This document shows positions 8,895 through 56,967 of a DNA stretch of 64,000 nt, piece after piece; the stretch's first letter is position 1; each line of letters begins with the position of its first letter. The DNA is from Kangiella sp. TOML190 (lineage in GTDB: Bacteria > Pseudomonadota > Gammaproteobacteria > Enterobacterales > Kangiellaceae). The stretch is taken from positions 806,001 through 870,000 of the forward strand of contig NZ_BQYL01000001.1 of NCBI RefSeq assembly GCF_023706045.1, written 5' to 3'. The translations under genes were made by a program, and so were the position numbers. A model generated the notes under the pieces. It ran no database searches, was not told the origin of the DNA, and saw only the letters and a program-made list of their open reading frames with translations.

Positions 8895-9548
<654 letters not shown>

Positions 9549-11109: not shown

Positions 11110-11186
11110 TCATTCTCTCGAAAGCGGGAATCCACCTGAAACTATCATACAAGCATTAGAATAGATTCCCGATTTCGCGGGAATGA
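11110..11186. repeat. Inverted-repeat element (TCATTCnC...GCGGGAAT type)
   Basis: The arm 11110-11132 (TCATTCTC...GGGAATC) is an imperfect inverted repeat of 11164-11186 (GATTCCC...GGGAATGA), with about 30 bases between. Elements with the ends GTCATTCCCGCG...GGGAATC are common non-coding repeats in proteobacteria. A single degenerate half may be present near 22574. Confidence 0.65.
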
Positions 11187-13577: not shown

Positions 13578-13628
13578 AGCTGGCAAAGCATTGACCGCCA
13601 GCCGTAATAAAATTTAACTGAGAAAGAT

Positions 13629-14015
13629 ATGAAAAAAATAATCCATACCGATAAAGCTCCTGCTGCTATTGGCACTTACTCGCAAGCAGTTCAAGCAGGC
13701 GATAGTCTTTACTTGTCAGGGCAAATTCCGTTAATTCCTGAAACGATGGAGTTAGTAGAGGATTTTGAAGCGCAAGTTCATCAGGTGTTTAAAAACTTAA
13801 CGGCGGTTTGCGAGGCTGCCAATGCCAGCCTTAACGATATCGTTAAGTTGAATATTTTTATGTTGGACCTAGCTAACTTTGCAACTGTTAATGAGATTAT
13901 GGCTCAATACTTCAAGCAGCCATACCCAGCCCGAGCAGCGATTGGAGTCAAAGAATTGCCTAAAGGAGCTCAGATTGAAATGGATGGCGTGGCTTTTTTG
14001 GGTAGCTCTATTTAG
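13629..14015 (+). CDS. RidA/YjgF-family imine deaminase
   Basis: A 128-residue Rid protein that hydrolyses reactive enamine/imine intermediates such as 2-aminoacrylate to ketoacids. Family signatures are [39 protein letters not shown], and the catalytic-site block [20 protein letters not shown] with the key Arg in PARAA. It lies between spoT and trmH, a placement known in several gammaproteobacteria, and is probably co-transcribed with them. Confidence 0.93.
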
Positions 14016-14026
14016 GCGACTAGGTT

Positions 14027-14713: not shown

Positions 14714-14764
14714 CCTTAAACTTCGGGATTTGGTTAGTCGATAAGGACAAGGAGTCGATATTTT

Positions 14765-14980
14765 ATGAACACTAAGGAATCTAAACTGAGCTTAATGGAC
14801 GAAACAGCGCCAACTAGCAGTCGCAAAGAATCTCCATTTCAAGTCAATACCCGTCTCCAAGCTGATAGACGTAAAAAGCGTGATCGTCGTCAAATTATCC
14901 GGTTTGAAGCCGATCGCCGTTCGCAAAAAGATAGGCGCAAAGAAGCCGCGGATCTGTGGTTGGAAAATTATCTAGAATAG
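14765..14980 (+). CDS. Small Arg/Asp-rich protein with two DRR repeats
   Basis: A 71-residue, highly charged protein. Two internal repeats of the form ADRR-x3-DRR are seen (ADRRKKRDRRQ and ADRRSQKDRRK), followed by an acidic, aromatic tail (DLWLENYLE). It is preceded by AAGGAG at a suitable distance and followed by a strong terminator, so expression is likely. No family is recognised. The composition suggests an RNA- or protein-binding role, but that is only a guess. Confidence 0.65.
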   Translation: MNTKESKLSLMDETAPTSSRKESPFQVNTRLQADRRKKRDRRQIIRFEADRRSQKDRRKEAADLWLENYLE

Positions 14981-14985
14981 TGGTT

Positions 14986-15017
14986 AAAGGGTAACGGATG
15001 TATTTTGTTACCCTTTT
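14986..15017 (+). terminator. Rho-independent terminator
   Basis: AAAGGGTAAC (14986-14995) pairs with GTTACCCTTT (15007-15016) around an 11-base loop and ends in T. It follows the small Arg-rich gene and closes the spoT-ridA-trmH unit. Confidence 0.85.
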
Positions 15018-15091
15018 CATTTGATCGCCGAATTTCCTATCAGGTATAGTTGTGGCAACTTCTAGGATAAAAAAGATAGGAAATAATAACA

Positions 15092-16315
15092 TTGGACATA
15101 GCAGCTTCCCAAGCCAGTGAGCGGCACCAATCTCTCGACTTACTGCGCGGCTTTGCCGTGTTAGGTATTTTGGTGATGAACATTGCCACCATTGCCAACA
15201 TCAATGCCTTTTATATGAACCCCTACGTTTTGGGCGAACCTTCGAGCATTAACCTCAATGCTTGGTTTGTTAATCATTTCTTTGCCGATCAAAAATTTTA
15301 TACGCTTTTTTCGATGCTGTTTGGCGCCGGTATTATGCTGATGGCGCAGCGGGCTAATAACAAGGGGGTTGCCGCTGGCCCAATCCATTATCGACGCATG
15401 GGTTGGCTGTTATTCTTTGGCCTGATCCATGGCTACCTTATTTGGTATGGCGATATTTTGGCGACTTACGCTTTGATGGGCTTCTGGGTGTACCTATTGG
15501 CGCTTAACACCAGCGCTAAAAAGAAATTTATCATTGCGGCGGTTTTAATGGGGCTCTACTTCTTAATGATGTACGGGATAAGCAATCTTTTCTATCAGAT
15601 GTCCGAAGCGGATCTGTTAGAAATGACAGAAATGTTCTACCCTTCCAGTGATACTATTGCCGCGGAAGTTGCCGCTTACCGCGGAAGCTGGGCTGAGCAA
15701 TTCGATCATCGTCTCGATTTTTATAGCGAAATGTTACTTAACGCCTTATTTATAGGACCATTGCGTATTGGTAGCGCCATGTTACTGGGTATGGCGCTCT
15801 ACCAAACTGGCGTCTTAACCGCTCAGCGCAGTAAAGGATTTTATTGGAAATTTTTAGCGGTTTGTTTAACCCTTGGGGTGCTGATTCAGTATTACGATTA
15901 TCGGGTATTACAGCAAGGTGACTTTAATATCATTGCCCTATTTAAGTCATTTGGGGCGCTAAACAGCATGGCAGCGGTGTTTATTGCTTTAGCTTATGTG
16001 GCGATCTTTTGTTTATGGTTTAAGTCCGGGTTGGGGCTGTGGATCCGCCATAAATTCGAAGCGGTTGGTCGTATGGCCTTTACCAACTACATTACTCAGT
16101 CCGTCATTTGCACCACGATCTTCTACGGTTTTGGTTTTGGCTATTTTGCCGAACTGGAGCGCTATCAACTCTACTTTATTGTCCTCGCTATTTTTATGCT
16201 GCAGCTGGTGTGGTCAGAATTGTGGCTAAAAAAATACTACTTTGGGCCGCTCGAATGGCTATGGCGCAGCTTAACCTATGGCAAATTGCAGCGTTTCTCC
16301 CGCGCTCACTCTTGA
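15092..16315 (+). CDS. DUF418-family integral membrane protein (YeiB-like)
   Basis: A 407-residue polytopic membrane protein. The N-terminal RHQSLDLLRGFAVLGILVMN is the HGSNAT/DUF1624-like signature. The C-terminal DUF418 block contains FEAVGRMAFTNYITQSV and GPLEWLWRSLTYG. About 9-10 membrane segments are visible. Members may be acyl-group transferases acting across the membrane, but the substrate is unknown. The start is TTG 15092 with AGGA upstream; no ATG is suitably placed. Its 3' end overlaps the next gene by 38 bases. Confidence 0.88.
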   Translation: MDIAASQASERHQSLDLLRGFAVLGILVMNIATIANINAFYMNPYVLGEPSSINLNAWFVNHFFADQKFYTLFSMLFGAGIMLMAQRANNKGVAAGPIHYRRMGWLLFFGLIHGYLIWYGDILATYALMGFWVYLLALNTSAKKKFIIAAVLMGLYFLMMYGISNLFYQMSEADLLEMTEMFYPSSDTIAAEVAAYRGSWAEQFDHRLDFYSEMLLNALFIGPLRIGSAMLLGMALYQTGVLTAQRSKGFYWKFLAVCLTLGVLIQYYDYRVLQQGDFNIIALFKSFGALNSMAAVFIALAYVAIFCLWFKSGLGLWIRHKFEAVGRMAFTNYITQSVICTTIFYGFGFGYFAELERYQLYFIVLAIFMLQLVWSELWLKKYYFGPLEWLWRSLTYGKLQRFSRAHS

Positions 16316-17135
16316 GCCGTTAGCCGCTGATCAAAGGCCGTTGGTGGATTTGCGTTCGCCACAGGCCTTTGTCCAAGGCCATCCGCTCGGCGCTACCAAT
16401 ATTCCGCTTGAGGAGCTGCCACTGGCTTGGCACGAGCTGCCACCCAAAGGCGCTCGCTTAGAGCTGTTGGTTAATCAAGCCGATGCCGAGCAGGCGCAAC
16501 GGATCTTTGAACAGCAACAGTATGCCATCGAGCAAATTCGGATCGCTGAACAGCAAGATCAAGCCAGCTGGCTTGCTAATAATGTTAGTCAGCGGTTATG
16601 GCGCGCCAACCCTTTATTGGAGCATTACATTGAGCTTATTAAGCAGCACATACATTCGTCATCGCCAGTAGCTTTCGATATTGGTTGCGGCTCTGGGCGC
16701 GATGCCCTGTTCTTAGCACTGCACGGTTTTAAAGTGTTGGGACTAGACAATAATCCTTTTGCGCTAGAGCGTTTAGAGCAGTTTAAACGGCGTTGGAATG
16801 CTAATTTAAGCGCTAAAATTGTGGATTTTCAAACCCAGCGAATAGCCTTAGTGGAGCTTATCGAGCAGCAACAGCCCTCTCTTGTGGTACAAGCGCGTTA
16901 TTTGCACCGCCCCTTGTTGGATGATTTTTATCAATACTTGCCGGCAGGTTCGATCTTGGCGATCCATACTTTTCTGGAAGCAGCGGCCAAGTTTGGTAAA
17001 CCTAAAAACCCTGCTTACCTGTTAAAAAATAACGAATTAGCTGAAAAATTTAAAGGCTGGGATCTTCTTATAAATCAAGAGCATAGATTAGATGATGGGC
17101 GACCTTTAAGTTTATTTTTAGCGAAAAAGCCATAA
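16278..17135 (+). CDS. Rhodanese-like domain fused to a SAM methyltransferase
   Basis: A 285-residue two-domain protein. Residues about 15-95 form a rhodanese-like domain (VDLRSPQAFVQGHPLGATNIP). The usual catalytic Cys loop is absent, since LELLVNQAD stands there, so it should lack sulfurtransferase activity. Residues about 130-285 are a class I methyltransferase with DIGCGSGRDALFLALHG and acidic VLGLD as the SAM site, resembling the TehB group. The gene starts inside the DUF418 gene, so translation is probably coupled. The substrate is unknown. Confidence 0.8.
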   Translation: MANCSVSPALTLEPLAADQRPLVDLRSPQAFVQGHPLGATNIPLEELPLAWHELPPKGARLELLVNQADAEQAQRIFEQQQYAIEQIRIAEQQDQASWLANNVSQRLWRANPLLEHYIELIKQHIHSSSPVAFDIGCGSGRDALFLALHGFKVLGLDNNPFALERLEQFKRRWNANLSAKIVDFQTQRIALVELIEQQQPSLVVQARYLHRPLLDDFYQYLPAGSILAIHTFLEAAAKFGKPKNPAYLLKNNELAEKFKGWDLLINQEHRLDDGRPLSLFLAKKP

Positions 17136-17201
17136 CCAAGCTCTCAGAATCTAGAATAGTGTTTGACTTTGGATGATGAATCTATGAATATCTAGTTATA
17201 G

Positions 17202-17216
17202 ATAGAAAACAACTAT
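17202..17216 (+). promoter_or_regulatory. Candidate OxyR half-operator (autoregulation)
   Basis: ATAG (17202-17205), 7 bases, CTAT (17213-17216) matches the ATAG-N7-CTAT half of the known OxyR recognition sequence and lies 15 bases upstream of the oxyR start. The second half expected 7 bases upstream is degenerate. Autoregulation is inferred. Confidence 0.45.
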
Positions 17217-17231
17217 TGCTAGAGGCCAGAT

Positions 17232-18146
17232 ATGACTCTTACCGAATTTCGTTACATCGTAGCGGTTGCCCAAGAGCAACATTTTGGGCGTGCTGCTGAA
17301 GCCTGTTTTGTTAGTCAGCCGACTTTGAGTGTTGGAGTAAAAAAGCTTGAAGAACAATTGGGCGTGGTGTTATTTGAGCGTAGTAAGTCGGACGTCAAAG
17401 TAACGCCGCAAGGCCAAAAAATTGTCGAGCAGGCACAGCGCATTTTGGAGCAAGTGGATCTACTCAAGCAAGAAGCGACCCAAAATTCGGATCAGCTTGA
17501 TGGTCCACTGCGTATCGGCGCGATTTTCACGATTGGCCCTTATTTATTTCCAAGCTTAGTGCCCGAAATGCGCCGTTTAGCGCCTAAAATGCCGCTGCAC
17601 ATTGACGAAGACTATACCCATAACTTGAAAACCAAATTACGCAATGGTGAGCTCGACGCGATTTTTATTGCTTTGCCATTTGATGAAGCCGAAATCGACA
17701 CCATTCCTTTGTATGAAGAAGAATTTCTGGCCTTACTGCCGCCTAAGCATCCTTGGGTTAAAAAAGAAACCATGCATTTAGCAGACATTGCCGACGAAGT
17801 CATGATCATGTTGGGAGCTGGACACTGTTTCCGCGATCAGGTACTAGAGGCGTGCCCCCAATGCCGTGACAACAGCCTTAATCCACAAAAAGATTGGATC
17901 ACGGGTTCTTCACTGGAGACCATCCGCCATATGGTCGCTAGCGGTTTGGGGGTCAGTGTGGTGCCGGCCTCGGCTACCGAGTTCCAAAATAAAGAGTTAG
18001 GTTTAGAGGTAAGAGCTTTTACCGATCCGGTACCGAGCCGCAAAGTGGCTTTGGCCTTTCGCCGGAGCTTTCCGCGCAAAGAGGCGTTGGAAATTATTCA
18101 GCAGGCGCTTCGCCCTATTCAACTCCAAGGCACGCAAGCACTTTAG
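17232..18146 (+). CDS. oxyR: Hydrogen-peroxide-sensing LysR regulator OxyR
   Basis: A 304-residue LysR regulator. The winged HTH is at residues 1-60 (FGRAAEACFVSQPTLSVGV). The redox cysteines sit exactly at C199 and C208 within AGHCFRDQVLEACPQ, as in E. coli OxyR, so peroxide sensing by disulfide formation is expected. It is placed directly before recG with no gap (stop 18144-18146, recG ATG 18147), an arrangement seen in other gammaproteobacteria. A possible autoregulatory half-site lies at 17202-17216. Confidence 0.95.
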   Translation: MTLTEFRYIVAVAQEQHFGRAAEACFVSQPTLSVGVKKLEEQLGVVLFERSKSDVKVTPQGQKIVEQAQRILEQVDLLKQEATQNSDQLDGPLRIGAIFTIGPYLFPSLVPEMRRLAPKMPLHIDEDYTHNLKTKLRNGELDAIFIALPFDEAEIDTIPLYEEEFLALLPPKHPWVKKETMHLADIADEVMIMLGAGHCFRDQVLEACPQCRDNSLNPQKDWITGSSLETIRHMVASGLGVSVVPASATEFQNKELGLEVRAFTDPVPSRKVALAFRRSFPRKEALEIIQQALRPIQLQGTQAL

Positions 18147-20231
18147 ATGGCGTTGACATCGTTAACCGAGATAGAGGTCGATAGTCTAAAAGGCGTCGGC
18201 CCTAAGCTGAAAGAAAAACTAGCCAAACTGCGGATAGAAAACCTGCAAGATCTGCTATTCCACTTACCGCTGCGCTACGAAGATCGAACCAAGGTTAAGC
18301 CTTTGATCGAAACTCGCGATGGCGAGCGGGCCATGATTCGGGTGACGGTGCAACATAGCCAAGTCCAGTATGGCAAACGGCGCACACTGATTTGCCGCGC
18401 TTTTGATCAAACCGCGTCGATAGATTTTCGTTTTTTTCACTTTATGGCAGCGCAGCAGAAAAAATTGCAAGCGGGCGTCGAACTCTATGCCTTTGGTGAG
18501 GTGCGGCGTTTCGGACGCAGTTTGCAAATGGTGCATCCTGAAATCACTTACCTTGGTGCCAATCAAGCAGCGCCCTTATTGGATTCGCTCACGCCAATTT
18601 ATCCGACTACCGAAGGGCTGCATCAGGCCAGTTGGCGCAATTTGCAAAAACAGGCTTTGGTTTACCTTACCAAGCATCCGGTAAAGGATTTATTGCCGCC
18701 CGAGTTAATCGACAAATGGCAACTGATGGGGATTAACGAGGCGTTATTGTGGTTGCATCAACCGCCTAAGCATACCGCAATTGAGGATCTATCTAGCGAC
18801 CAATCGCCTGCTATTAAGCGTTTGATTTATGAGGAATTACTGGCGCAGCAGTTGAGTATGCAGTTGCAACGCCAGCGCTTCCAGCAAGATAGCGCCTTTG
18901 TCATGCGCAATAAAGGTGAGCTAGTGCAAAAACTACTAGCGCTGTTACCTTTTAAACCGACTAAGGCACAGCGCAGAGTGGTGTCTGAAATCAGCCAAGA
19001 TTTACAGTCCAACCGTCCGATGTTGCGTTTATTGCAGGGCGATGTGGGCGCGGGTAAAACTCTGGTCGCCGCACTATGCGCTTTACAAGCTATAGAGTCT
19101 GGTTTCCAAGTAGCGCTAATGGCACCGACGGAAATTTTGGCGGAGCAGCACTTAAATAGCTTTAAAGCTTGGTGTGATAGTCTTGAGATAGAACTGGCGT
19201 TTTTGGTTGGCAAGCTAAAAGCCGCGCAAAGACGCGAGTCATTAGCAGCTATTCAGTCGGGACAGGCGCAGCTGGTGATTGGCACTCACGCCTTGTTTCA
19301 AGAGGAAGTGGCTTATCACAAGCTCGGTTTGGCGATTATTGATGAGCAGCACCGCTTTGGCGTGAAACAGCGTTTGGCACTTAAGAATAAAGCACCAGAA
19401 AATAAGCAGCTGCATCAACTGATGATGACTGCCACGCCCATTCCGCGCACCCTAGCCATGACCGCCTATGCGGATATGGATTTATCGATTATTGACGAAC
19501 TGCCGCCGGGGCGAACGCCAGTAAAAACCATTGCCATTTCTGAGCAAAAACGTGATCAGGTTATGCAGCGTATGGAGGATGCTTGTCTTCATGAAAAGCG
19601 CCAAGTGTATTGGGTTTGTACCTTAATCGAAGAGTCGGAAGAAATTCAAAGCCAAGCGGCAGAAACCACTGCTAATCTATTAGCTGAGCAACTGCCGAAC
19701 TGTCGCATTGGGCTTATTCATGGACGGCTAAAATCCGAACAAAAACAGATGGTTATGCAGCAATTTAAAAATGGCCGATTGGATATTTTGGTCGCAACCA
19801 CGGTGATTGAGGTAGGCGTTGATGTGCCTAACGCGAGTCTGATGATTATCGAAAACCCGGAGCGCTTGGGCTTGGCGCAATTACACCAGTTGCGTGGTCG
19901 TGTGGGTCGCGGTTCGGTCGAGAGCCATTGTTTGTTGCTCTACGGACATCCGCTGTCTGACAATGCTAAGTCGCGAATACAAATTATGCGTGAAACCAAT
20001 GATGGTTTTCAGATCGCTGAAGAAGATTTGCGTTTGCGGGGGCCTGGCGAGTTTTTAGGTACACGCCAGACTGGTGAAATGGCGCTGCAATTTGCCGATA
20101 TTGTTAAAAATTCGGCATTAATCCCCGAAATTCAAACAGTTGCCAAAGCTATGATCAGCCAAAACCCAAAGTTAGCACAAAGTTTATGCAAACGCTGGCT
20201 CGGCTATCGGCATGAATTAGGTGATGTTTAG
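18147..20231 (+). CDS. recG: ATP-dependent DNA helicase RecG
   Basis: A 694-residue branch-migrating helicase that reverses stalled forks. The N-terminal wedge/OB domain includes LKGVGPKLKEKLAKL and LPLRYEDRT. Helicase motifs follow: Walker A GDVGAGKT, DEQH box (IIDEQHRFGVKQR), TATPIPRTLAM, TTVIEVGVDVPNA, QLHQLRGRVGRG. The C-terminal GPGEFLGTRQTG is the RecG-specific TRG region. It is immediately downstream of oxyR and closes the spoT-to-recG neighbourhood. Confidence 0.97.
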   Translation: MALTSLTEIEVDSLKGVGPKLKEKLAKLRIENLQDLLFHLPLRYEDRTKVKPLIETRDGERAMIRVTVQHSQVQYGKRRTLICRAFDQTASIDFRFFHFMAAQQKKLQAGVELYAFGEVRRFGRSLQMVHPEITYLGANQAAPLLDSLTPIYPTTEGLHQASWRNLQKQALVYLTKHPVKDLLPPELIDKWQLMGINEALLWLHQPPKHTAIEDLSSDQSPAIKRLIYEELLAQQLSMQLQRQRFQQDSAFVMRNKGELVQKLLALLPFKPTKAQRRVVSEISQDLQSNRPMLRLLQGDVGAGKTLVAALCALQAIESGFQVALMAPTEILAEQHLNSFKAWCDSLEIELAFLVGKLKAAQRRESLAAIQSGQAQLVIGTHALFQEEVAYHKLGLAIIDEQHRFGVKQRLALKNKAPENKQLHQLMMTATPIPRTLAMTAYADMDLSIIDELPPGRTPVKTIAISEQKRDQVMQRMEDACLHEKRQVYWVCTLIEESEEIQSQAAETTANLLAEQLPNCRIGLIHGRLKSEQKQMVMQQFKNGRLDILVATTVIEVGVDVPNASLMIIENPERLGLAQLHQLRGRVGRGSVESHCLLLYGHPLSDNAKSRIQIMRETNDGFQIAEEDLRLRGPGEFLGTRQTGEMALQFADIVKNSALIPEIQTVAKAMISQNPKLAQSLCKRWLGYRHELGDV

Positions 20232-47688: not shown

Positions 47689-47771
47689 ATAAACAGTTTT
47701 TTACAATTGATATTAGGATTTTAGGACGAGTAAGAGTAAAATTGCCGTCCGCTTTAGAGAGGTGAATGACA

Positions 47772-48503
47772 ATGAAATTAACTAAAATTTTTGCTGCAGT
47801 AGCTGCTGTAGTTTCCATGGGCTCAGTGCAAGCATCGGGTTTGTTAGCCGACGCTCCTGAGGAAGGCACTAAAGGTAATATCGATCTAGGCTTCGTTGAT
47901 ACGTCGGGTAACACTAACACGACGACTATGAATGGTGCTTTTGATTATCTGATTCGAGTGTCCGATCCTTATTCGATGGGCTTTAGTGTTACCGGTTTAA
48001 ACAACTCTGATGATGACGAGCGCTCTGCGGAAAAGTATACTTTCGCATGGAATAATCGTTATGACTTATCTGAGAAAGATTTTTTGTACGGTACTTTAGA
48101 TTACGTTAATGACTATTTTGGTGCTTATGATTACCAATCTGGTGTCTATTTTGGTTACGGTCGTCAAATTTTCAAAGACGACAGTGGCAGCCTTTCTTTA
48201 GGTGTTGCTGCTGGTTATCGAATCAATAAAGTATTTGTTGGCGATGATGAAAAAGAAGGTGTTTTGCGTGGCGACTTGGACTATGCCTACAATATTTCAG
48301 AATCAGCCACTTTTACCCAGAAGTTAACGGCGATCATTGGTGAAGAGGTGGACACTTATGATTCGGAAACGGCTTTGACAGCTAAGCTTTCTGACAGTTT
48401 GGCATTGAAAGTAGCCTATTTGGTAACTCATAATTCAAAAGTTCCTGCTGATCGTGACAAAACTGATAAGACTGCCTCAGTTGGAGTAAGCTATAGCTTC
48501 TAA
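47772..48503 (+). CDS. DUF481 outer-membrane beta-barrel protein (YdiY-like)
   Basis: A 243-residue protein with a signal peptide (cleavage near VQA-SG, residue 22). It consists of alternating beta strands and ends in SVGVSYSF with the C-terminal Phe required for outer-membrane assembly. The N-terminal GNIDLGFVDTSGNTNTTT is the DUF481 signature. The function is unknown. ATG 47772 is chosen because GAGAGG is 9 bases upstream; ATG 47766 is only 3 bases from it. Its terminator is now displaced by the transposon insertion at 48515. Confidence 0.88.
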   Translation: MKLTKIFAAVAAVVSMGSVQASGLLADAPEEGTKGNIDLGFVDTSGNTNTTTMNGAFDYLIRVSDPYSMGFSVTGLNNSDDDERSAEKYTFAWNNRYDLSEKDFLYGTLDYVNDYFGAYDYQSGVYFGYGRQIFKDDSGSLSLGVAAGYRINKVFVGDDEKEGVLRGDLDYAYNISESATFTQKLTAIIGEEVDTYDSETALTAKLSDSLALKVAYLVTHNSKVPADRDKTDKTASVGVSYSF

Positions 48504-48506: not shown

Positions 48507-48514
48507 AAGTTAGC
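48507..48514 (+). repeat. Target-site duplication, left copy
   Basis: AAGTTAGC directly abuts the left terminal inverted repeat and is identical to 55381-55388. An 8-bp duplication is the usual outcome for IS1595-family transposition. Confidence 0.93.
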
Positions 48515-48539
48515 CGCTATTAGGTAGCAAATGCACCTA
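48515..48539 (+). repeat. Left terminal inverted repeat (25 bp)
   Basis: It begins CGCTATTAGG and is the exact reverse complement of 55356-55380. Inside both ends the shared CCTAATTAA continues the similarity, after a 10-base gap on the left side. Confidence 0.95.
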
Positions 48540-48550
48540 ATAGCGTGCTC

Positions 48551-50455
48551 CTAATTAATGGGGACTTTTTCCGCCTCAGAAAACCTTTTAAGGGTTATAA
48601 GCAAGTTTTTTAAATTCATATAGGCAATTTTATAATTAGGATTTAAGGCAATTGCTTTCCTATAGGCCTCTTCAGCTTTGGCGTATTCGCCTATTCTTTT
48701 TAAAGAAACGCCGTAATTAGAAAATTGTTTAGCGTCATCTGGAAGAAGTTCAGTTAGATGCTTATATACATCTACTACTTTCTCGTACTCTTTTAATTTC
48801 TGAAACTGGTTAGCCAGTGAAAGATATAAATCTTCATCATTTGACTTTATCCTTAATGTTTCATCAAAATGGTGCATCGCTTCGTTTGAGCGATTTGAGT
48901 TAAGTAATAAAATAGCATAATTGAATTGAATCTGTGCAATGTTTTCATTTATGGATATAACTTTTCTATATGCCTCGTCCGCTTCCTTTATTCGATTAGC
49001 AGAATGTAGACTTAAAGCTAATCCTATATAAGATGACAAACTTTCTGGATGTAAAGAAATACTTTTTTTGTAGATTTTTATGGCCTCATTATGCTTAGTT
49101 CTTCCGGCTAATACATTACCCAAAGCGTAAAGTGAGTAATGACTTTCAGGTGATAGCTGTATCGCTTTTTTGGCATATTGTTCTGCCTTGTCCAGATCAT
49201 TAGATTTTAAATATGCGTAGCTAAGTCCTGCATAACCCATTTCGCTTTTCGGGAATCTCTCAAGATGCTTTTTGAAATAACTAAGTGCATCATTATGTCT
49301 GTTCTGAGCTGCGTATATATATCCTAAATATGAGTATGCCAAGTGAGGTGCGTGGCCTATATCTAAAAATTTGAGGAATGCTTTTTCAGCTAACATGAAT
49401 TCATTGAGATCATAGAAATGAATGCCATGTACAAAGCAGTCTATAGGGCTTTCATCATTACAAGCCTTATCAAACATTTTGTCTGACATTTTAATATTGC
49501 CTAGCTGTTTGTGAAAAATGCCAGTAATAAAACAGTCGTGAGTGGAGTTTTCACTCTTTAGACAGGCTCTAGTCAGGTATTGCATTACTTCTGACTTATC
49601 GCTTGACTGAAAAGCTACATCGCCACATGTATCAGGACTAATATAGCAGGCTGCTTTCTCAATTATGTTAATGCTCTTGTTATCTTGTTTTATAAAAGGA
49701 TACATGGCTATTCCTATTGATAGTACTAAGCCTGATAAAATTATCCCTAAAGAGCTACCGGGTTTGCTTTCTATGTCTAGCCATCTCGAAAGAAATGTTT
49801 TAGAGGATAGCTTCATCACCCAAGTAGATAAAACATATAACCATGAAAGAAAAGAGGTTAAAAAAGTTGAGTAAAAAAAGATAGAATATACACTAAATGC
49901 TGCTACCATTTTCATAATTGAAACATCATGTACATTAGCGATCCATAGATATACAAGTATATAAGTGCTAATAATTACTGCAGATAATACAATGTCAGCA
50001 AACAATAAGAACAAATGCCCGAAAACCCCTTTCACATTTTCAAACAATTTAAGTAAATATCTTGTTTGAAGCAAAGAAAGGTAATCTGGGACAAAGTTGA
50101 TCAGAATACCAAGGGTTAAGATCTGAAATAAGGCTAGTTCTGTTTGTATCCGCGGTCTTTCGCTTGAAAAAAATGAGGCATTGTTAAAGACTACATATAA
50201 GATTAGAACGAAGCTTAAAGAAGCTATACACGAGTTAACAATGCATCTAACAGATAAGTGCTTAGAGCCAAATATACTGTCAAAGAAATTGTTATAGTGT
50301 TTTATCCAACTATCTTCATAATCTCCCCAAAGCCATAAAGAGAAACTTTCTCTTTTGCTTTGCGACATATGACTAATTGAAAACTTTGAAAAATTGTAAA
50401 CTGCTACAACAATGGCAAAAAGGATTCCAAAGTAGCTTATAAATGTACTATCCAT
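48551..50455 (-). CDS. Polytopic membrane protein with C-terminal TPR array (transposon cargo)
   Basis: A 634-residue protein. The N-terminal 255 residues hold about six membrane segments (near 5-25, 75-95, 106-126, 147-175, 182-210, 233-253). After a Cys-containing linker (about 260-340), roughly eight TPR-type helical repeats run to the end (for example AYSYLGYIYAAQNRHNDALSY in two parts, then YAKKAIQLSPES and YRKAIALNPNYK). It starts 10 bases after the DUF262 gene, so the two are co-transcribed. It ends 12 bases from the left TIR. No known family for the whole architecture. Confidence 0.85.
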   Translation of the reverse strand: MDSTFISYFGILFAIVVAVYNFSKFSISHMSQSKRESFSLWLWGDYEDSWIKHYNNFFDSIFGSKHLSVRCIVNSCIASLSFVLILYVVFNNASFFSSERPRIQTELALFQILTLGILINFVPDYLSLLQTRYLLKLFENVKGVFGHLFLLFADIVLSAVIISTYILVYLWIANVHDVSIMKMVAAFSVYSIFFYSTFLTSFLSWLYVLSTWVMKLSSKTFLSRWLDIESKPGSSLGIILSGLVLSIGIAMYPFIKQDNKSINIIEKAACYISPDTCGDVAFQSSDKSEVMQYLTRACLKSENSTHDCFITGIFHKQLGNIKMSDKMFDKACNDESPIDCFVHGIHFYDLNEFMLAEKAFLKFLDIGHAPHLAYSYLGYIYAAQNRHNDALSYFKKHLERFPKSEMGYAGLSYAYLKSNDLDKAEQYAKKAIQLSPESHYSLYALGNVLAGRTKHNEAIKIYKKSISLHPESLSSYIGLALSLHSANRIKEADEAYRKVISINENIAQIQFNYAILLLNSNRSNEAMHHFDETLRIKSNDEDLYLSLANQFQKLKEYEKVVDVYKHLTELLPDDAKQFSNYGVSLKRIGEYAKAEEAYRKAIALNPNYKIAYMNLKNLLITLKRFSEAEKVPIN

Positions 50456-50465
50456 ATAAATAAAT

Positions 50466-52157
50466 TTAGAAATCAGATCGCCAAATATGGCTGGCTAATT
50501 TAGACATCTCCGTTTGTCTTGCTCGTAAAGCATCAGGATTCCAAGTCTGAGCGTTGATCTGGTTCGCAGAAGAGTAAACGCTCTCAATATAACTATTAAC
50601 TTTAACTGCAAAAACTTCGTTACCAATTTCTCTATTCAAATTTGCTTCAAGTAAGCAATAGTTACCCAATCGATATAAGAAGCCTTCTTGAGAGTCTTTA
50701 GGAAAGTGTTCCAACCATGCTCTGCTAGAGTTTTCAGGGAAAATATGCTCAATTGTTCCTGCATCCAGTTCAAAGTCCCTATTTATTCCTGACATATGCT
50801 CTTCAATTTTATATAGAATATATCTAACCAGTTTTTTTCGTCTTTTATTATTCATAACCTTATTAGAAAAGTCATGTTCAAACTCTTCATCACTTACATA
50901 AATACTCTTTAGTTGCTCGAAAACATGCCTGGCTCTGGTTATCTCATTTTTGCTTATTTTAACTGCCGCGGCGTTATACGCTTTTTCTAGCTCATTAGGG
51001 TTTCTTCCGCATATGACACTGTATCGAAATGAAATTGCTATGCTTAGTTTTATAGTTTTTCTAAACTCTTCATCAGTGAAGTTGTTATATGCGGATAATA
51101 GAAGGGGTGTAATTTGTTTAACATTAAAAAGGCTAAACTCTCGGATTAAAGTTTTGGTTCCATCTCTGTCTTTCCAAATGTCGGAGTTATAGTTTTTTAA
51201 GGCTTCAAAAATATCAGCATTAACCTCAAGCTCTTCAAGTAAAGCCAGAGCCTTGGGCGCTGAGTCTACTCTACTTTTAATGGTTTTGAATAGCCTATCA
51301 GATCTTACTAGAGAAGATTTCGAATTTATAAAGTACCTAAGAAAGTCTGGCAGTTTATCAGTTCCAACGGTATCGCCTATTCGCTTCCACCTTCTTTGTT
51401 GAAGTTCTATTTCATTCTCATCGTCAATTAACGAAAATAAATAGTTTTTTAAAAGATCTGTCGAGGTTAATTCAACACCACGCGCATTTAATGTTTCAAA
51501 CACTATATAAGCACTTAAATCATCTTCCACATTTATTTCTATAAAGAGAATCCTTCTTGAAATTAATTCAATGATTAATGCTGCAAGCGATGCTCCATTA
51601 TCTTTTAAATTATCTAAGGTATTAATTTTTTCAGAAAAGTATAAGTATGCCCGATACAATCTTTTATTAGAGGCCGATAAACTTCTAATATTATTAGGCT
51701 CAACCAATTGAAGTAAATTGTTTTGAAAAAACTCATCATTATTTTTATTTAAAAACAATTTACTTGTATATTTTAAGGTCGTAGCGTGCTTATCGTCTAA
51801 GTAATTTCGCCTTAAAATCTCAACACGTTCTTTATTTTGCTCCTTTTCCTGCCCGGCATCCGCCAAATCTTCTATCCGTTTTATTATCGTAAGTATAATT
51901 ATAGAAAAGGTTGTGAACCTTTGCTGACCATCTATCACGCTTGAAACTTTATCTTCGAGTTTCTGCAGAACTATTGATCCCATATAGTGGTAGGATTCAG
52001 GGTTATTTATTAAGGCTACAATATCTTCCCAAAGGTCTTCCCAATGCTCTTCTGACCAAGAGTAATCTCTTTGATAGGGAGGGACATGATAAATCTTACT
52101 AGAAGACAATAAGTCATCTAGCGTAACTGTACTTGTATTTAATAGATTTTTTGACAT
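50466..52157 (-). CDS. DUF262-DUF1524 GmrSD-like protein (transposon cargo)
   Basis: A 563-residue protein of single-chain GmrSD type. The DUF262 (GmrS-like, ParB/Srx-related nucleotide-using) domain shows VPPYQRDYSW (residues 25-34), HYMGSIVLQ and the signature DGQQR (76-80). The C-terminal DUF1524 (GmrD-like His-Me finger nuclease) has H471 in TIEHIFPE, then N499 in LGNYCLL and N508 in LNREIGN. GmrSD proteins are type IV restriction enzymes that cut modified phage DNA, and related proteins act in other defences. The target here is unknown. Confidence 0.88.
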   Translation of the reverse strand: MSKNLLNTSTVTLDDLLSSSKIYHVPPYQRDYSWSEEHWEDLWEDIVALINNPESYHYMGSIVLQKLEDKVSSVIDGQQRFTTFSIIILTIIKRIEDLADAGQEKEQNKERVEILRRNYLDDKHATTLKYTSKLFLNKNNDEFFQNNLLQLVEPNNIRSLSASNKRLYRAYLYFSEKINTLDNLKDNGASLAALIIELISRRILFIEINVEDDLSAYIVFETLNARGVELTSTDLLKNYLFSLIDDENEIELQQRRWKRIGDTVGTDKLPDFLRYFINSKSSLVRSDRLFKTIKSRVDSAPKALALLEELEVNADIFEALKNYNSDIWKDRDGTKTLIREFSLFNVKQITPLLLSAYNNFTDEEFRKTIKLSIAISFRYSVICGRNPNELEKAYNAAAVKISKNEITRARHVFEQLKSIYVSDEEFEHDFSNKVMNNKRRKKLVRYILYKIEEHMSGINRDFELDAGTIEHIFPENSSRAWLEHFPKDSQEGFLYRLGNYCLLEANLNREIGNEVFAVKVNSYIESVYSSANQINAQTWNPDALRARQTEMSKLASHIWRSDF

Positions 52158-52231
52158 ATGGAATTCCTTTTACTTTAAACATGACAATGCAAATATGCAT
52201 TAAATTCAAATGGTTACATCATTATTAGGTA

Positions 52232-52243
52232 ATACTATAGTAT
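52232..52243. promoter_or_regulatory. 12-bp palindrome upstream of the DUF262 gene
   Basis: ATACTATAGTAT is perfect and lies 74 bases before the DUF262 start, in the 100-base gap after the 278-residue gene. It may mark an internal promoter or operator for the DUF262-TPR pair. In such AT-rich DNA it could also be chance. Confidence 0.3.
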
Positions 52244-52257
52244 TGTAGTTATTTAAA

Positions 52258-53094
52258 TCAAACTGATTGTTTTGTCTGGCTTTCATTTTTATAGTTATTT
52301 AGCTCTTCAAGATTAATCGAGCTTAAGACCGTGAATATTTCGGCTCTTTCAAAACCATATACCTCTTTTCCAAGCATATGGTTTAATTTGCTTTTTATAA
52401 ATATTATCCAACTACTAAATGATTCTGTTTTACGCACTTTCTTTTGGTGGCTGCTAATTTTTTTTAATATCCCCGTTCTCTCAAACATCAGTTCATATAA
52501 ATCAAAGCCAATTACGTCTGTTGGAGTACACATCGATAAGGTGATAATTGTTTTAATGAGCAATTCAATAACTAAATCTGCATGCTCTTCATATAAATCA
52601 TGAAATACCAGCAAAGCTGCAGCTGAATCCAGTGAGCAATGTTTTGAGATATGTTCAATTAACTCTTTAGAAATTTCATTTTGTTGAACTCTCTGACTAT
52701 ATGCTTCCTCATAAAATATCTTTGAAGAAAGCTCAGGGTTTAGCAGCCTTAATAAAATAGAAGCGCTTGAAGTGTCATCAACCTTAAGAGCAAAAGCTTG
52801 CCATATGGGATGCCTTAATGTCGACATGCTCAAATCTGGCAGGTATTTATCCATAGCCTCTATTATATGGGTTCGATCTATTACTTCACCTCCACTTTTC
52901 AGTGTCCAAAAATTTCCTTTTGAAGTCGGTAGAGCAGGTAACTGAGGGTTGTAACTTCGCTCTAATTCAAAAAAGTCATAGAGGTGATTATGGTGACTTA
53001 CATTCATTCTCATACAAGCAACCGAGACATAGTACTTCGTTGCAATACTTTTTATCTCTTTGGGCAGCTTTCTATATGCTTGGAGAGTGTACAT
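52258..53094 (-). CDS. Unknown 278-residue protein (transposon cargo)
   Basis: A soluble-looking, largely alpha-helical protein without signal peptide or recognised motif. The N-terminus (LPKEIKSIATKYYVSVACMRM) and central segments are amphipathic, and it is Ser/Leu/Glu-rich. It is the first gene of the leftward series (278 aa, DUF262, TPR) and divergent from a small DNA-binding-like gene 138 bases away. Given its place it may take part in the cargo's function. Confidence 0.72.
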   Translation of the reverse strand: MYTLQAYRKLPKEIKSIATKYYVSVACMRMNVSHHNHLYDFFELERSYNPQLPALPTSKGNFWTLKSGGEVIDRTHIIEAMDKYLPDLSMSTLRHPIWQAFALKVDDTSSASILLRLLNPELSSKIFYEEAYSQRVQQNEISKELIEHISKHCSLDSAAALLVFHDLYEEHADLVIELLIKTIITLSMCTPTDVIGFDLYELMFERTGILKKISSHQKKVRKTESFSSWIIFIKSKLNHMLGKEVYGFERAEIFTVLSSINLEELNNYKNESQTKQSV

Positions 53095-53232
53095 TCTGTT
53101 GTTTACCAGTGGTTGTTTATTGGGTAGTTGCCGTTTGAGGTCATCATAACTTTATTCAAATACTTTGATTCTTACAATAGAATCGAAAAGTATCTTTAAA
53201 TCACGAATCTATACAGTTGCGGAGTATTTCAA

Positions 53233-53511
53233 ATGATAAATACATATGATGAACTAAAAGAATTAACTCTTGAGTTAGAAATTCAATTATTGCAGCTGTA
53301 TAAATCTCCAATTTTGCACGGTGAATCTCTTCAACTTTCATTGGGGTATAAAAGTTTAGATGCAATGAGGCAATCTTTTGCTAAAGGCAGAGCGCCAATT
53401 AAGTTATTCAAAATGAGTAATAGGAGAGGGAAATATGCTTTAACAAAAGATGTTGCAGCATACTTAGCTAAAACCAGATTAGATATAGATAAGGAGGAGC
53501 ATATGAAATAA
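53233..53511 (+). CDS. Small excisionase/MerR-like DNA-binding protein candidate
   Basis: A 92-residue protein. The central part (HGESLQLSLGYKSLDAMRQ, then KGRAPIKLFKMSNRRGKYALTKDVAAYLAK split at RRG) looks like a winged-helix excisionase-type fold, with a helix-turn-helix, a basic wing and a final helix. It is divergent from the cargo operon and on the same strand as the transposase. A regulatory or accessory role is plausible but inferred. Confidence 0.62.
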   Translation: MINTYDELKELTLELEIQLLQLYKSPILHGESLQLSLGYKSLDAMRQSFAKGRAPIKLFKMSNRRGKYALTKDVAAYLAKTRLDIDKEEHMK

Positions 53512-53558
53512 AAAGGAAATAGCTTATTTAATCGAGGCAATTAGCTAGAAAGCAAAAA

Positions 53559-53612
53559 GCTCAAGTGAATAAACACTTGAGCCTCTTAAGAATAGCAAGT
53601 AAGACTTGCTAT
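53559..53612. other. Tandem stem-loops upstream of the transposase gene
   Basis: GCTCAAGTG (53559-53567) pairs with CACTTGAGC (53574-53582), and ATAGCAAGT (53592-53600) pairs with ACTTGCTAT (53604-53612). Both stems are perfect. The first is followed on the minus strand by a T-run and could terminate leftward transcription. The pair could also limit read-through from the small gene into the transposase. Confidence 0.5.
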
Positions 53613-53775
53613 GCATACAGCTTAAGATTACTTACCTATCTGCTTTCTGTCAATCTATATAACCGGTGTTTTTCACATCGCTGTTAGATTGCTATTGCCT
53701 CCATTTTTCATAGAAATCGCATAAGTGATTGATAAATGGAGAAAAAAATTTTGAGAATACAATTAGGAGGTATTT

Positions 53776-54855
53776 ATGCCTCAAAGCTATAGGTTGAGTA
53801 GTGAACGAAGAAATTTTTCATTAGACGACATTGATGAAATGACAGAAGAAAAAGCTATGTTATTTATTGCGAAATCGCGCTGGGGAAGTGAAAGTGAGCA
53901 GGTTTGTCCCGAATGCGGAAGCTTCTCCAAGCATTACTACAAAAAAACAAGAAAGCAGTGGCGATGCAAGCATTGTAATCATACTTTTAGTGTTACATCT
54001 AGCTCTGTTTTTGCCCATAAAAAGATTAAGTATAAAAAGTTACTCCGGTTGCTTTTTATGTTCTGTAATTCAGCTAAAGGAGTTAGCGCAACTGAATTAA
54101 GTGGCATCCTAGGTTTATCGCAAAAATCTAGCTGGCTTTTATGTCATAAAATTCGTGAAGGGCTATTACGATCAAGGGATGAATCGCCTCTATCTGGGTT
54201 AATACATATCGATGGAGCCTACTTTGGAGGAAAAAGAAGGCATGGCCGTAAAAGAAGGTATCGTATTGCTCACAAAGCTTATGAAGCAAGAATCGCCACA
54301 AAGGGCAAGGTTAAGCTTCCCTTAAGTCCAATACAGAAAAGAAATCTTTATAAAAGAAAGAAAAACAGGCGTGTAGTAATGAGTTTGAGAGAAATTAGCT
54401 CTAAATCTGGTCAAGGAGCAACTAAAACAAGAATTGCTGTTACTAGAGCTGAAGATGAAGCCAATGTAATAAAACTCTGTGAGCGATTCGTAGCTAAAGG
54501 AAGCACGATTTGGAGTGACGAACATAAGGCTTATAACAAGCTTCAGAGTAACTATAAACATGAATCCGTAGAGCATTCCGAAGAATTTATGTCCGAATCT
54601 GGCGTGCATAACAATCAAGCTGAATCATATAATTCTCGGTTACGCCGAGCAGAATATGGCACCTTTCATGGCATGCGTCCACAGTACATGCTTGATTATG
54701 CCCAAGAGATGGCATGGAGAGAAGATACACGCAGAGATACACTACTGGATCAATTAAGCAGTCTGATACGTTGTGTTTTCTCTGTTGGAGAATCCGTTTG
54801 GTGGCGAGGATACCACCAAGGAGTTAGGCGGAACGATGAACTACTTGCCTTTTAG
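53776..54855 (+). CDS. IS1595-family (ISXO2-like) transposase
   Basis: A 359-residue DDE transposase. An N-terminal zinc ribbon (CPECG ... CKHC, residues about 44-66) is followed by a helical DNA-binding region (LSGILGLSQKSSWLLCHKIR). The catalytic domain has D146 in HIDGAYFGGKRR, D248 in IWSDEHKAY and E283 in NNQAESYNSRLRRAEYGTFHG. The ribosome binding site AGGAGG is strong. It appears intact. Its last 15 bases overlap the convergent gene's 3' end. Confidence 0.93.
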   Translation: MPQSYRLSSERRNFSLDDIDEMTEEKAMLFIAKSRWGSESEQVCPECGSFSKHYYKKTRKQWRCKHCNHTFSVTSSSVFAHKKIKYKKLLRLLFMFCNSAKGVSATELSGILGLSQKSSWLLCHKIREGLLRSRDESPLSGLIHIDGAYFGGKRRHGRKRRYRIAHKAYEARIATKGKVKLPLSPIQKRNLYKRKKNRRVVMSLREISSKSGQGATKTRIAVTRAEDEANVIKLCERFVAKGSTIWSDEHKAYNKLQSNYKHESVEHSEEFMSESGVHNNQAESYNSRLRRAEYGTFHGMRPQYMLDYAQEMAWREDTRRDTLLDQLSSLIRCVFSVGESVWWRGYHQGVRRNDELLAF

Positions 54856-55323
54856 GCGATAGTATCTTTTTGCAGCATTATTTTTAACAGGCAAGCACTC
54901 AAGTACTCCTTGAGTGCACATTGCATAAAGGGAATTCCTAATAGATTTATAAAATTTTGGATAGGTAATATCATCACTGATAGCGTAATTAGATGAGATA
55001 TGATCTAGTACATCCTTTGTAGATAGTGCTTTATTATCATTCTTTTCAAAGTATCTTAAAATCAGCTGCTTAATAGTACGATTTTTTATTGCTTTCTTTA
55101 CTGGCTGATCCTGAGTAGTCGGAATAACTTTGGGATTTATTTGTATTTCGTGAAGCCGAATAGTTTTATCTAAAGCATTCAAGTCTTCTTGTAACTTAAG
55201 AATTCTCCTATCAAAAGGCTCAGTATAAATATCTCGTTCTTGACGAAGACGTATTATTTTACCCTCAATAGATGAGCGTTTTTTAATAAGCCAGTTTAGA
55301 GATGCAGGGATACGATTTGACAT
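54841..55323 (-). CDS. Coiled-coil plus winged-helix protein (transposon cargo)
   Basis: A 160-residue protein. Residues about 10-60 form a coiled coil (SSIEGKIIRLRQERDIY, then LKLQEDLNALDKTIRLHE), and residues 85-158 resemble a winged helix (TIKQLILRYFEKNDNKALST, with LYAMCTQGVLECLP and a wing KRYYRLKGK). A short basic linker separates them. ATG 55323 is preferred over TTG 55329. Convergent with the transposase, overlapping it by 15 bases, and 32 bases from the right TIR. Possibly an accessory DNA-binding protein. Confidence 0.68.
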   Translation of the reverse strand: MSNRIPASLNWLIKKRSSIEGKIIRLRQERDIYTEPFDRRILKLQEDLNALDKTIRLHEIQINPKVIPTTQDQPVKKAIKNRTIKQLILRYFEKNDNKALSTKDVLDHISSNYAISDDITYPKFYKSIRNSLYAMCTQGVLECLPVKNNAAKRYYRLKGK

Positions 55324-55355
55324 AATCAAATTGTATCCCGCTTATTTAATTAGGC

Positions 55356-55380
55356 TAGGTGCATTTGCTACCTAATAGCG
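55356..55380 (-). repeat. Right terminal inverted repeat (25 bp)
   Basis: The exact reverse complement of 48515-48539, ending CCTAATAGCG at the element boundary. Confidence 0.95.
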
Positions 55381-55388
55381 AAGTTAGC
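55381..55388 (+). repeat. Target-site duplication, right copy
   Basis: AAGTTAGC is identical to 48507-48514 and directly follows the right TIR. Confidence 0.93.
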
Positions 55389-55392: not shown

Positions 55393-55422
55393 AAAAAGCC
55401 CTTGTTTCAAGGGCTTTTTTTG
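55393..55422. terminator. Terminator displaced from the DUF481 gene by the transposon
   Basis: AAAAAGCCCTTG (55393-55404) pairs with CAAGGGCTTTTT (55408-55419), followed by more T. Removing the element and one target copy puts this hairpin about 16 bases after the DUF481 stop, so it originally ended that gene. It still serves the convergent lipoprotein gene, whose stop is at 55429. Confidence 0.9.
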
Positions 55423-55428: not shown

Positions 55429-56298
55429 TTACTTTATTGATTTTTGTCTGAAGGGTAAGGTGAGTGAGAGCAATAACCATAAAACTAAAATTTCAAACAT
55501 ACCAAAACCACCTGCTCCAGAATAGCCTTTTTTATTAGAAACGATCACCGAGTCTTTATCGTTTTTTATTTTTTCCTGAAACTTTTCAAGTTCTAATTCT
55601 AGATTGCCTGTCATATTCGAGGCTGCCACTCGAAAGCCCTCGGCGCTGTCATGACGCAATTCTTCGCTTAAATTTACGGGAGTTGAGCGGCCTTTGACTG
55701 AGCTGGATCCGGGCGCGCGAAACAACATACTTCTGCTGCTGATGTCATAAACCACGGTATCAAGCATGGTACTGGTATCATTTTTTTCACCAGAAACCAG
55801 GTAAGCGCCGACTATGGTCCAATAGGATAAGGATAAGAAATCTTCGTCGGTGAACTGAACTTGGTCATAAGATACTAACGCGATCAGCTCAACGCCATAC
55901 ATATTCGCTATCTGATCGAGATTGTCGAAACCGCCTTGTGGTCTTAGGTAAGCTGAGGGAATAACGGCGATATCTTCAACAAACTCTAAATTTCTAAAAT
56001 CTTGCGCGATGGTCTCCAATAATTCTGCTTTTAAGGTCTCGGGGAAGTCATGTCCATAACTGTTGCCTGACCAAACATTGTGAGCTCTTGAATGGTTGTG
56101 TTGATCTGGCACAAAAGCAATACCAACCTTTAAAGGCAGTTTAAGGTGAGGAATACTAGGGGAAACTTTGGTTTGCTCTCCAGAATAGAGGTAATCGACA
56201 ACGCTACTTGAGCCTCTGACCTTTTGTCCTGCGCAGGATTGTAAAAACAAACCGATTACCATGATTAAAGTGAGTCTAAGCAAGTTACTGCCGATCAT
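55429..56298 (-). CDS. Rhombotarget lipoprotein (GlyGly-CTERM-type tail)
   Basis: A 289-residue lipoprotein. The signal ends in GLFLQSCAG (lipobox). The C-terminus has a Gly/Ser motif GYSGAGGFG, a hydrophobic helix (MFEILVLWLLLSLTLPF) and a short basic end (RQKSIK). This is the sorting signal recognised by rhombosortase, and the whole protein resembles the rhombotarget lipoprotein family. ATG 56298 is chosen because AGGAG precedes it; the longer frame to 56352 hides the signal peptide. No rhombosortase gene is in the window. Confidence 0.8.
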   Translation of the reverse strand: MIGSNLLRLTLIMVIGLFLQSCAGQKVRGSSSVVDYLYSGEQTKVSPSIPHLKLPLKVGIAFVPDQHNHSRAHNVWSGNSYGHDFPETLKAELLETIAQDFRNLEFVEDIAVIPSAYLRPQGGFDNLDQIANMYGVELIALVSYDQVQFTDEDFLSLSYWTIVGAYLVSGEKNDTSTMLDTVVYDISSRSMLFRAPGSSSVKGRSTPVNLSEELRHDSAEGFRVAASNMTGNLELELEKFQEKIKNDKDSVIVSNKKGYSGAGGFGMFEILVLWLLLSLTLPFRQKSIK

Positions 56299-56427
56299 TT
56301 TAGGGCTCCTTATTATGTTTAAATCAGCCGTATCGCTAACAGCAACATACAATTATCGGACTGATTAGCACTTTTAATAGTAGTGCGGTTAATCATAAAG
56401 AGTGATCGAGTTGGGCGCAAATCCTTG

Positions 56428-56967
56428 TTAGATATCGCTATCGGATAAATGCTGGTTTTTAATTCGGACATAGTTGGCGGCGGAATATTCGAAGAAACCG
56501 ATTTCCTCTTCAGTCAACTTACGAATTTTTCTTGCTGGCGAACCAACCCACAAATAGCCGCCTTCCAGCTCGCGCCCCGGCGGTACTAAACTGTTGGCGC
56601 CAATAATAACGTGTTCGCGAATAATGGCGCCGTCCATAACCACTGCCCCCATCCCGATAAGGCAATTATTTTCGATGTGGCAGCCGTGCAAGATGGCTTT
56701 ATGACCAACAGTTACGTTGTCGCCAACCACCAGATCAAAGCCGCCCGGATCGTAAGGGCCATCATGAGTTACGTGGCAGACGGTTCCGTCTTGAATACTG
56801 GTGCGGTTGCCAATTCGGATCGAATGTACGTCGCCGCGCAAAACCGCCATTGGCCATATGGAGCTATCCTTTCCTATTTCCACATCGCCTAGCACCAGAG
56901 CCATTGGATCGACGAAAGTTTTGTCACCAATTTTTGGTGTGTATTGTTTAAATCTACGAATTGCCAT
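56428..56967 (-). CDS. Gamma-carbonic anhydrase-like hexapeptide-repeat protein (YrdA-like)
   Basis: A 179-residue left-handed beta-helix protein. Hexapeptide repeats run from about residue 15 to 150. The metal-site histidines are seen in GTVCHVTHDG and in VTVGHKAILHGCHI. The catalytic-type residues of true Cam enzymes cannot be confirmed, and YrdA-group proteins often have unproven activity. Monocistronic. Confidence 0.9.
   Translation of the reverse strand: MAIRRFKQYTPKIGDKTFVDPMALVLGDVEIGKDSSIWPMAVLRGDVHSIRIGNRTSIQDGTVCHVTHDGPYDPGGFDLVVGDNVTVGHKAILHGCHIENNCLIGMGAVVMDGAIIREHVIIGANSLVPPGRELEGGYLWVGSPARKIRKLTEEEIGFFEYSAANYVRIKNQHLSDSDI

Follow-up and report, generated by a model that had tools for sequence, protein, structure and literature searches.

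An IS1595-type transposon with GmrSD-type cargo in Kangiella sp. TOML190, and related elements at inverted repeats

Borders and gene content of the element

Within the 64,000 nucleotides of Kangiella sp. TOML190 analysed here (contig NZ_BQYL01000001.1, positions 806,001 to 870,000; referred to as the window), positions 48515-55380 hold a 6,866-bp IS1595-type transposon. It carries genes for a tetratricopeptide repeat (TPR) protein, a GmrSD-type protein, an orphan protein, a small helix-turn-helix (HTH) protein, a transposase and an accessory coiled-coil/winged-helix protein (Table 1), and is located between the stop codon of a host DUF481 gene and a terminator-like hairpin 4 nt away. A first-pass annotation, made from the letters of this DNA without database searches, had described perfect 25-bp terminal inverted repeats and an 8-bp target duplication, and both were found. 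The ends show 100% complementarity across 25 nt, and with up to three mismatches allowed the end sequence matched only these two places in the window. The flanking duplication, AAGTTAGC, can alternatively be read as CGAAGTTAGC because CG ends the right terminus and CG precedes the left duplication; we use the 8-bp reading, as 8 bp fits the IS1595 family. Chance repeats were ruled out as the source of the ends, with no match in 100 shuffles at the same threshold. A compound transposon of two insertion sequence (IS) copies was also ruled out, since the window has no inner ends at up to three mismatches and only one such transposase.

The transposase, the only one encoded by the element, matched DDE_Tnp_IS1595 (128.5 bits), Zn_ribbon_IS1595 (48.7 bits) and the NCBIfam IS1595 family (134 bits), each above its curated cut-off. 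The N-terminal zinc ribbon and the triad D146, D248 and E283 picked out by the annotation are thus both upheld: the three residues fall at alignment positions occupied by D, D and E in 58/58 transposases, and the zinc-ribbon cysteines 44 and 47 are invariant in this alignment.

Table 1. Features of the transposon and its immediate surroundings (window coordinates)
Feature	Position	Strand	Basis or remark
Host DUF481 gene, left neighbour, outside element	47766..48503	+	Pfam DUF481, 159.6 bits
Left target duplication copy	48507..48514	.	8 bp, AAGTTAGC
Left terminal inverted repeat, 25 bp	48515..48539	+	
TPR protein, 634 aa, cargo	48551..50455	-	Pfam TPR families
GmrSD-type (DUF262 + DUF1524) protein, 563 aa, cargo	50466..52157	-	Pfam, PADLOC
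Orphan protein, 278 aa, cargo	52258..53094	-	No relatives outside host in collections searched
Small HTH protein, 92 aa, module	53233..53511	+	Relatives upstream of transposase elsewhere
IS1595-type DDE transposase, 359 aa, module	53776..54855	+	Pfam and NCBIfam, catalytic triad
Accessory coiled-coil/winged-helix protein, 160 aa, module	54841..55323	-	Start at 55329 (162 aa) in the list of open reading frames
Right terminal inverted repeat, 25 bp	55356..55380	-	
Right target duplication copy	55381..55388	.	8 bp, AAGTTAGC
Terminator-like hairpin at target site, 12-bp stem	55393..55419	.	

The insertion site in relatives of the host

The DUF481 gene was found in 19/20 genomes of the genus, the host counted. 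In the 18 relatives, the distance from this gene to the next conserved gene (window 56428-56967, whose product we take to be a gamma-carbonic-anhydrase-like protein) is 46-91 bp in 16 genomes and 231 and 727 bp in the other two. As these gaps are too small for the element, it is absent from this site in 18/18 relatives. A terminator-like hairpin follows the DUF481 stop codon in most of the 16 short-gap relatives, as judged by eye; in the host, the insertion has cut the gene off from its terminator hairpin. The first-pass annotation had named, as the finding that would speak against a transposon, the same gene block conserved in relatives without the ends. No such block was seen, and a conserved chromosomal locus is ruled out by the empty site in all 18. 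The empty sites, together with the swapped cargo of related elements described below, support the transposon reading as a whole, and we consider it very probable that 48515-55380 is an IS1595-type cargo transposon that entered by a single insertion between the DUF481 gene and its terminator.

The mobility module

The annotation had assigned five genes to the cargo. The DUF262-DUF1524 (GmrSD-type), TPR and 278-aa genes stand as cargo, but the excisionase-like and coiled-coil/winged-helix genes belong to the mobility module, because both recur beside related transposases. Relatives of the 92-aa HTH protein, which we take to be excisionase/AlpA-like, are encoded upstream of the transposase at loci L018 and L104 (36% identity each) and, more weakly, at L016. 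Other small regulators are found upstream of the transposase elsewhere, LexA-like at L019 and XRE-like in 28/29 Pasteurellaceae-type elements.

For the accessory protein, the ATG at 55323 is the more likely start, because it fits the homologues. In 13/15 single-transposase loci examined, the transposase is followed by an opposite-strand open reading frame (ORF) longer than 100 aa; none follows it at L022 and L101, which are one and the same place. A profile built from an alignment of 12 accessory proteins (L107 left out) matched a small protein beside the right end in 24/29 Pasteurellaceae-type elements (E values of 4e-12 to 1e-3; no match in L071, L073, L074, L076 and L077) and also matched in 3/4 alphaproteobacterial elements, the weak matches possibly being helped by coiled-coil composition. 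The structural model of the window protein has a long helix at residues 7-56 and a winged-helix-like part at 81-157 (mean predicted local distance difference test score, pLDDT, 79.9; predicted template modelling score 0.49), and the folds retrieved from the PDB were those of generic winged-helix regulators, all with E values above 1e-3. The window protein had no plasmid matches, and the accessory protein of L141 had none beyond its own record. The transposase probably works together with the recurring accessory protein, a putative DNA-binding protein encoded at the right end, and with the small HTH regulator.

Related elements in other genomes

Searching named genome contigs with the transposase yielded 40 loci with 33-50% identity in the best segment, and similar ends were detected in many of these as well as in loci of further genomes. 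Among 45 non-redundant end pairs, 33 (the window included) have an exact 8-bp duplication; the other 12 were excluded from element counts. The window element therefore has 32 non-redundant counterparts with a related transposase, similar ends and an exact duplication, mostly from Pasteurellaceae, and the 33 elements range from 4.7 to 15.5 kb. Redundancy was removed by end sequence rather than by insertion site, and some sites may share ancestry. The annotation had proposed to look for the same ends with the same or swapped cargo in unrelated genomes, and these elements display swapped cargo between similar ends. For example, the right transposases of L031, L043, L044, L046 and L064 share 90-98% identity with their L035 counterpart and the cargo genes differ, with four of the five falling in one broad methyltransferase cluster. 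By this comparison, cargo is swapped between elements with a similar core.

How widespread the transposases are varied between groups. Relatives of the L035 transposase were found at E 1e-80 in 45/121 genomes of the family of genome G043, taken as Pasteurellaceae, relatives of the L020 transposase at E 1e-70 in 6/399 genomes of the order of G547 (G547 counted), and relatives of the window transposase at E 1e-60 in 2/369 genomes of the host's class (host counted). A minimal element, on plasmid pSR-1 of Skermanella rosea (L141 8904-10591; 1,688 bp), has only the transposase and accessory genes, with 20/20 end matches and the duplication GACATTCC; it is flanked by two pieces annotated as an Ldh-family oxidoreductase. 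A Phyllobacterium plasmid carries a 3,021-bp element with the duplication CGTTAATC, and two further alphaproteobacterial plasmid elements examined were without an exact duplication. At L107 (10080-15141), a 5,062-bp element of similar gene layout has different ends (GGGTGTTAATAAGC) and a duplication, TTTGCAGT, abutting a 13-bp hairpin. Ends were not found for L016, L020, L104 and L105, and L018 has 22 matching end bases and no duplication.

None of the 26 plasmid records having a transposase relative is from Nitrobacter. A search of viral contigs with the window transposase led nowhere, the window end was not found in viral contigs, and phage records gave one weak match to the transposase (21.9% identity). 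One 13-kb viral contig contains a single copy of the Pasteurellaceae-type end (L143 5408-5431). The records of L046 and L048, labelled Pseudomonas stutzeri and Streptococcus, hold Pasteurellaceae-type elements and are possibly mislabelled or contaminated.

Landing sites

Landing sites were reconstructed by joining the flanks of each element. Using the DNA-uptake signals given in PMC1626085, we detected an inverted pair (AAGTGCGGT or ACAAGCGGT, at most one mismatch, within 40 nt) around 18/29 Pasteurellaceae-type sites, compared with 1/1,093 random flank positions and 351/29,866 (1.2%) intergenic positions of the same loci; the P value against the intergenic controls, 9e-28, is only nominal, given the dependence among control positions and among some of the sites. 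Counted by ends, an uptake signal aimed at the element lies within 50 nt at 50/87 distinct element ends having enough flank. More generally, 12-nt arms with at least 11 matches surround 17/33 sites (6/1,093 controls), and 26/37 sites of all groups have an inverted repeat 9 bp or longer within 12 nt (20/263 controls). The remaining 11 sites, without such a repeat, are L017, L034, L052, L053, L076, L077, L088, L089, L134, L141 and L142, among which L034 and L076 still have an uptake-signal pair and L134 has a hairpin with an 8-bp stem 5 nt away. Outside Pasteurellaceae, the window, L019, L103, L107 and L134 elements lie 0-5 nt from a hairpin, unlike those of L017, L141 and L142. Insertions of the related elements are concentrated at inverted repeats, and insertion looks targeted.

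The sites might only look targeted if insertion were random and the survivors were those in intergenic DNA, which is rich in terminators and inverted uptake signals. This would fit the location of 24/29 Pasteurellaceae-type sites outside ORFs of at least 80 aa. It would also fit a stricter terminator scan, which was positive at only 10/33 sites (18/278 controls), and the small number of duplications within 3 nt of a stem edge (10/37 sites, 5/263 controls); exact abutment on the hairpin stem is not the rule. However, the excess of uptake-signal pairs over intergenic positions, even though these are not independent, argues for targeting, and we regard random insertion as quite improbable. On this reading, related elements favour inverted repeats, for instance terminator hairpins and inverted uptake-signal pairs, and the tendency of cargo to land outside genes follows from this preference.

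Paired transposases

Two transposase genes of different type are present in 28/29 Pasteurellaceae-type elements and face outward in all but L075, which looks composite. Some of these genes are split or short, and L053 has the right type only. In a tree of 58 transposases (320-400 aa long or from beta loci), the right type forms one group (support 100/99) and the left type another (96/92), the two being adjacent. The window transposase groups with those of single-transposase members; it sits on a long branch, which leaves its precise position uncertain. The catalytic triad is intact in 23/23 right and 26/26 left transposases.

On a Rhodovastum plasmid (L139 6015-9984), one IS1595 transposase (same protein accession) is present twice, the copies facing outward and separated by about 2 kb, with a hypothetical gene beside each. 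This arrangement is a possible route to the two-transposase form.

Cargo of the related elements

PADLOC scans were performed with 63 chosen, mostly longer, cargo proteins at a cut-off of E 1e-5 (one set at E 1e-30). A defence match was obtained for 46 of the 63, at least one in 29/33 elements, and for none of ten randomly drawn flanking proteins. The matches are to methyltransferases and restriction enzymes of types I, II, IIG and III, with a retron in L071, AbiL in L052, and IetAS and a JetD-like protein in L103. The 14.3-kb L103 element (4348-18604) carries IetAS and a four-gene run ending in the JetD-like gene, with no family match for the other three genes. The run may be a distant Wadjet-like system, to which only gene order and size point.

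Defence is not the only cargo. Four of the 33 elements (L017, L038, L043 and L073) had no defence match; L038 (4151-8236) carries a YadA-type trimeric adhesin gene and L043 a SocA/Panacea domain. Two other genomes of the host genus share, at one site, a 5,036-bp element (L134 6792-11827 and L135 7028-12063; duplication AGTATCTA) that has nearly the window's ends, no transposase gene and five genes that look metabolic by eye. As no relative of the transposase was detected in either genome at E 1e-3, the transposase presumably acted in trans; this cassette is a non-autonomous element, and these ends have therefore moved other cargo. Together with the four elements lacking a match, it shows that cargo need not be defence. 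An ordinary passenger-carrying IS1595 element, whose relatives' defence cargo just mirrors the restriction genes common in Pasteurellaceae, could account for the metabolic-looking cassette and the L038 adhesin, and passenger genes are already known in this family. Yet the difference between 29/33 elements and 0/10 flanking proteins, from a small control and with longer cargo chosen, makes the absence of any defence bias unlikely in our view.

Cargo of the window element

DUF262 and DUF1524 are now named GmrSD_N and GmrSD_C in Pfam, and the 563-aa protein is full-length with both domains (131.6 and 81.3 bits). It matched PADLOC HEC-06 with 698.2 bits, residues 1-562 aligning to profile positions 1-567 of 569, and the motifs YQR, DGQQR and FETLN are present. 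A sequence search found a single solved relative, the DUF262 protein 9jfl, and a viral-contig search with the GmrSD protein led nowhere. The TPR gene lies 10 bp downstream of the GmrSD gene and the orphan gene lies upstream; the three genes are probably co-transcribed. Judging from its sequence, the N-terminal part of the TPR protein is probably membrane-embedded, and its first 300 aa had no relative on plasmids. The 278-aa protein had no plasmid match and none beyond the host in 339 genomes of its class, and its single-sequence model (pLDDT 38.1) was not used.

The cargo could instead be a toxin-antitoxin-like or membrane-damaging abortive system, with the TPR or orphan protein as effector, or decayed genes, and the TPR and orphan genes are indeed without a defence match (E 1e-5) or relatives in the collections searched. 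Set against this is a GmrSD protein that is full-length, aligns with HEC-06 from end to end and keeps the motifs given in PMC11411939, so that we are doubtful of such a system. On the sequence evidence, the cargo is probably a type IV restriction enzyme of the GmrSD/HEC-06 kind, accompanied by the TPR and orphan proteins.

Relation to known elements

The family is described in part of PMC5704250 as having a zinc ribbon and DDE transposase, ends of about 25 bp, an 8-bp duplication and passenger genes, and a single transposase gene is given as a feature in a passage of PMC8101967. The window element has the transposase domains, the inverted repeats, the 8-bp duplication and the single transposase gene; 28/29 Pasteurellaceae-type relatives differ in having two. 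ISNha5 is named with regulator passengers in part of PMC11891212, and the passages on IS1595 elements there and in PMC5704250, from which passenger-carrying elements are already known, make no mention of an accessory winged-helix protein, defence cargo, paired transposases or site choice. The closest kind is the IS1595 transporter IS with passengers (ISNha5 subgroup; mobilizable examples MTnSag1 and tISCpe8). ISNha5 elements are about 3.5-7.9 kb long with ends starting CGGnnTT. Hairpin-forming intergenic sequences are also chosen by insertion sequences that target repetitive extragenic palindromes (REP) and by terminator-targeting group IIC introns. The choice is alike and the enzymes are different, and we know of no such IS or intron that uses inverted DNA-uptake signals.

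Tn7-like transposons are likewise delimited, with swappable cargo rich in defence genes, so that defence cargo on transposons is already known (PMC8649781). Their machinery is different: the elements here use one or two IS1595-type transposases, and Pfam and NCBIfam scans reported no TnsA, TnsB or TnsC domain for the six proteins of the window element. ISApl4/Tn7560, according to part of PMC12561309, is likewise a case of IS1595-family movement of several genes in Pasteurellaceae with 8-bp duplications, but Tn7560 is pseudo-compound, with 712-bp IS copies and 14-bp ends, whereas the elements here have one outer end pair and larger transposases. The GmrSD, HEC-06 and TgvAB proteins, as described in PMC11411939, share the DUF262 and DUF1524 fusion and the motifs of the window protein, and HEC-06 is there said to work alone; the window protein differs in adjoining TPR and orphan genes and in being transposon-borne. 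Among the matches listed in the open literature, we found no description of IS1595 transposons that carry defence genes and have an accessory winged-helix protein, a transposase pair or uptake-signal siting, and the parts of the Pasteurellaceae papers PMC12242098 and PMC3339403 that were available describe no such elements.

A model for insertion and spread

We propose that the DDE transposase, perhaps with the accessory protein, would bind the 25-bp ends and that integration beside or inside an inverted repeat would give the 8-bp duplication; we can only guess that hairpin choice lies with the accessory protein. The left part of the element is exchangeable cargo, and the GmrSD enzyme of the window would be modification-dependent (type IV), cutting DNA that bears a foreign modification, as GmrSD enzymes do, and probably directed at phages with modified DNA. 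Framing by uptake signals might aid transfer in competent hosts. A further-reaching reading would be an IS1595-type family that mainly moves anti-phage systems and homes to hairpin DNA. Its copies in Pasteurellaceae, bacteria that rely on such signals for DNA uptake, would each be framed by an inverted pair of uptake signals and could spread by natural transformation; the accessory winged-helix protein would select the hairpin, the two outward transposases would cooperate, one per end, and the window element would be a family member with one transposase that inserted at a terminator hairpin. We hold this combined scheme tentatively, as possible but on balance not the expected outcome.

Several observations weigh against our interpretation. 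The window element is single-copy in the 2.45-Mb host genome, where the only two further matches to the transposase are weak (E 2e-5 and 1e-4) and look like pieces of one distant IS. None of the other transposases found exceeds about 46% identity to that of the window, and the empty sites were seen in other species rather than in sister strains. To these are added the terminator-scan and stem-edge counts, the four elements without a defence match, the metabolic-looking cassette of the same genus, and the two of three window cargo genes with no defence match.

The elements provide exact borders for a vehicle of defence genes, above all restriction-modification systems, and cargo can therefore be listed rather than guessed from neighbourhood, which makes the cargo genes with no assigned family candidate defence genes. 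A hairpin-preferring transposase module, if true, would be a new case of target choice for IS1595-type enzymes. Should placement between uptake signals favour transformation, one bacterial family would show a link between transposition, natural competence and restriction.

Neighbouring genes

Between the element and the next conserved host gene lies a Rhombotarget lipoprotein gene (55429-56352; TIGR04179, 319.6 bits); the DUF481 regions of the 18 same-genus relatives contained no match to it. This gene is a difference from the relatives that is separate from the transposon insertion.

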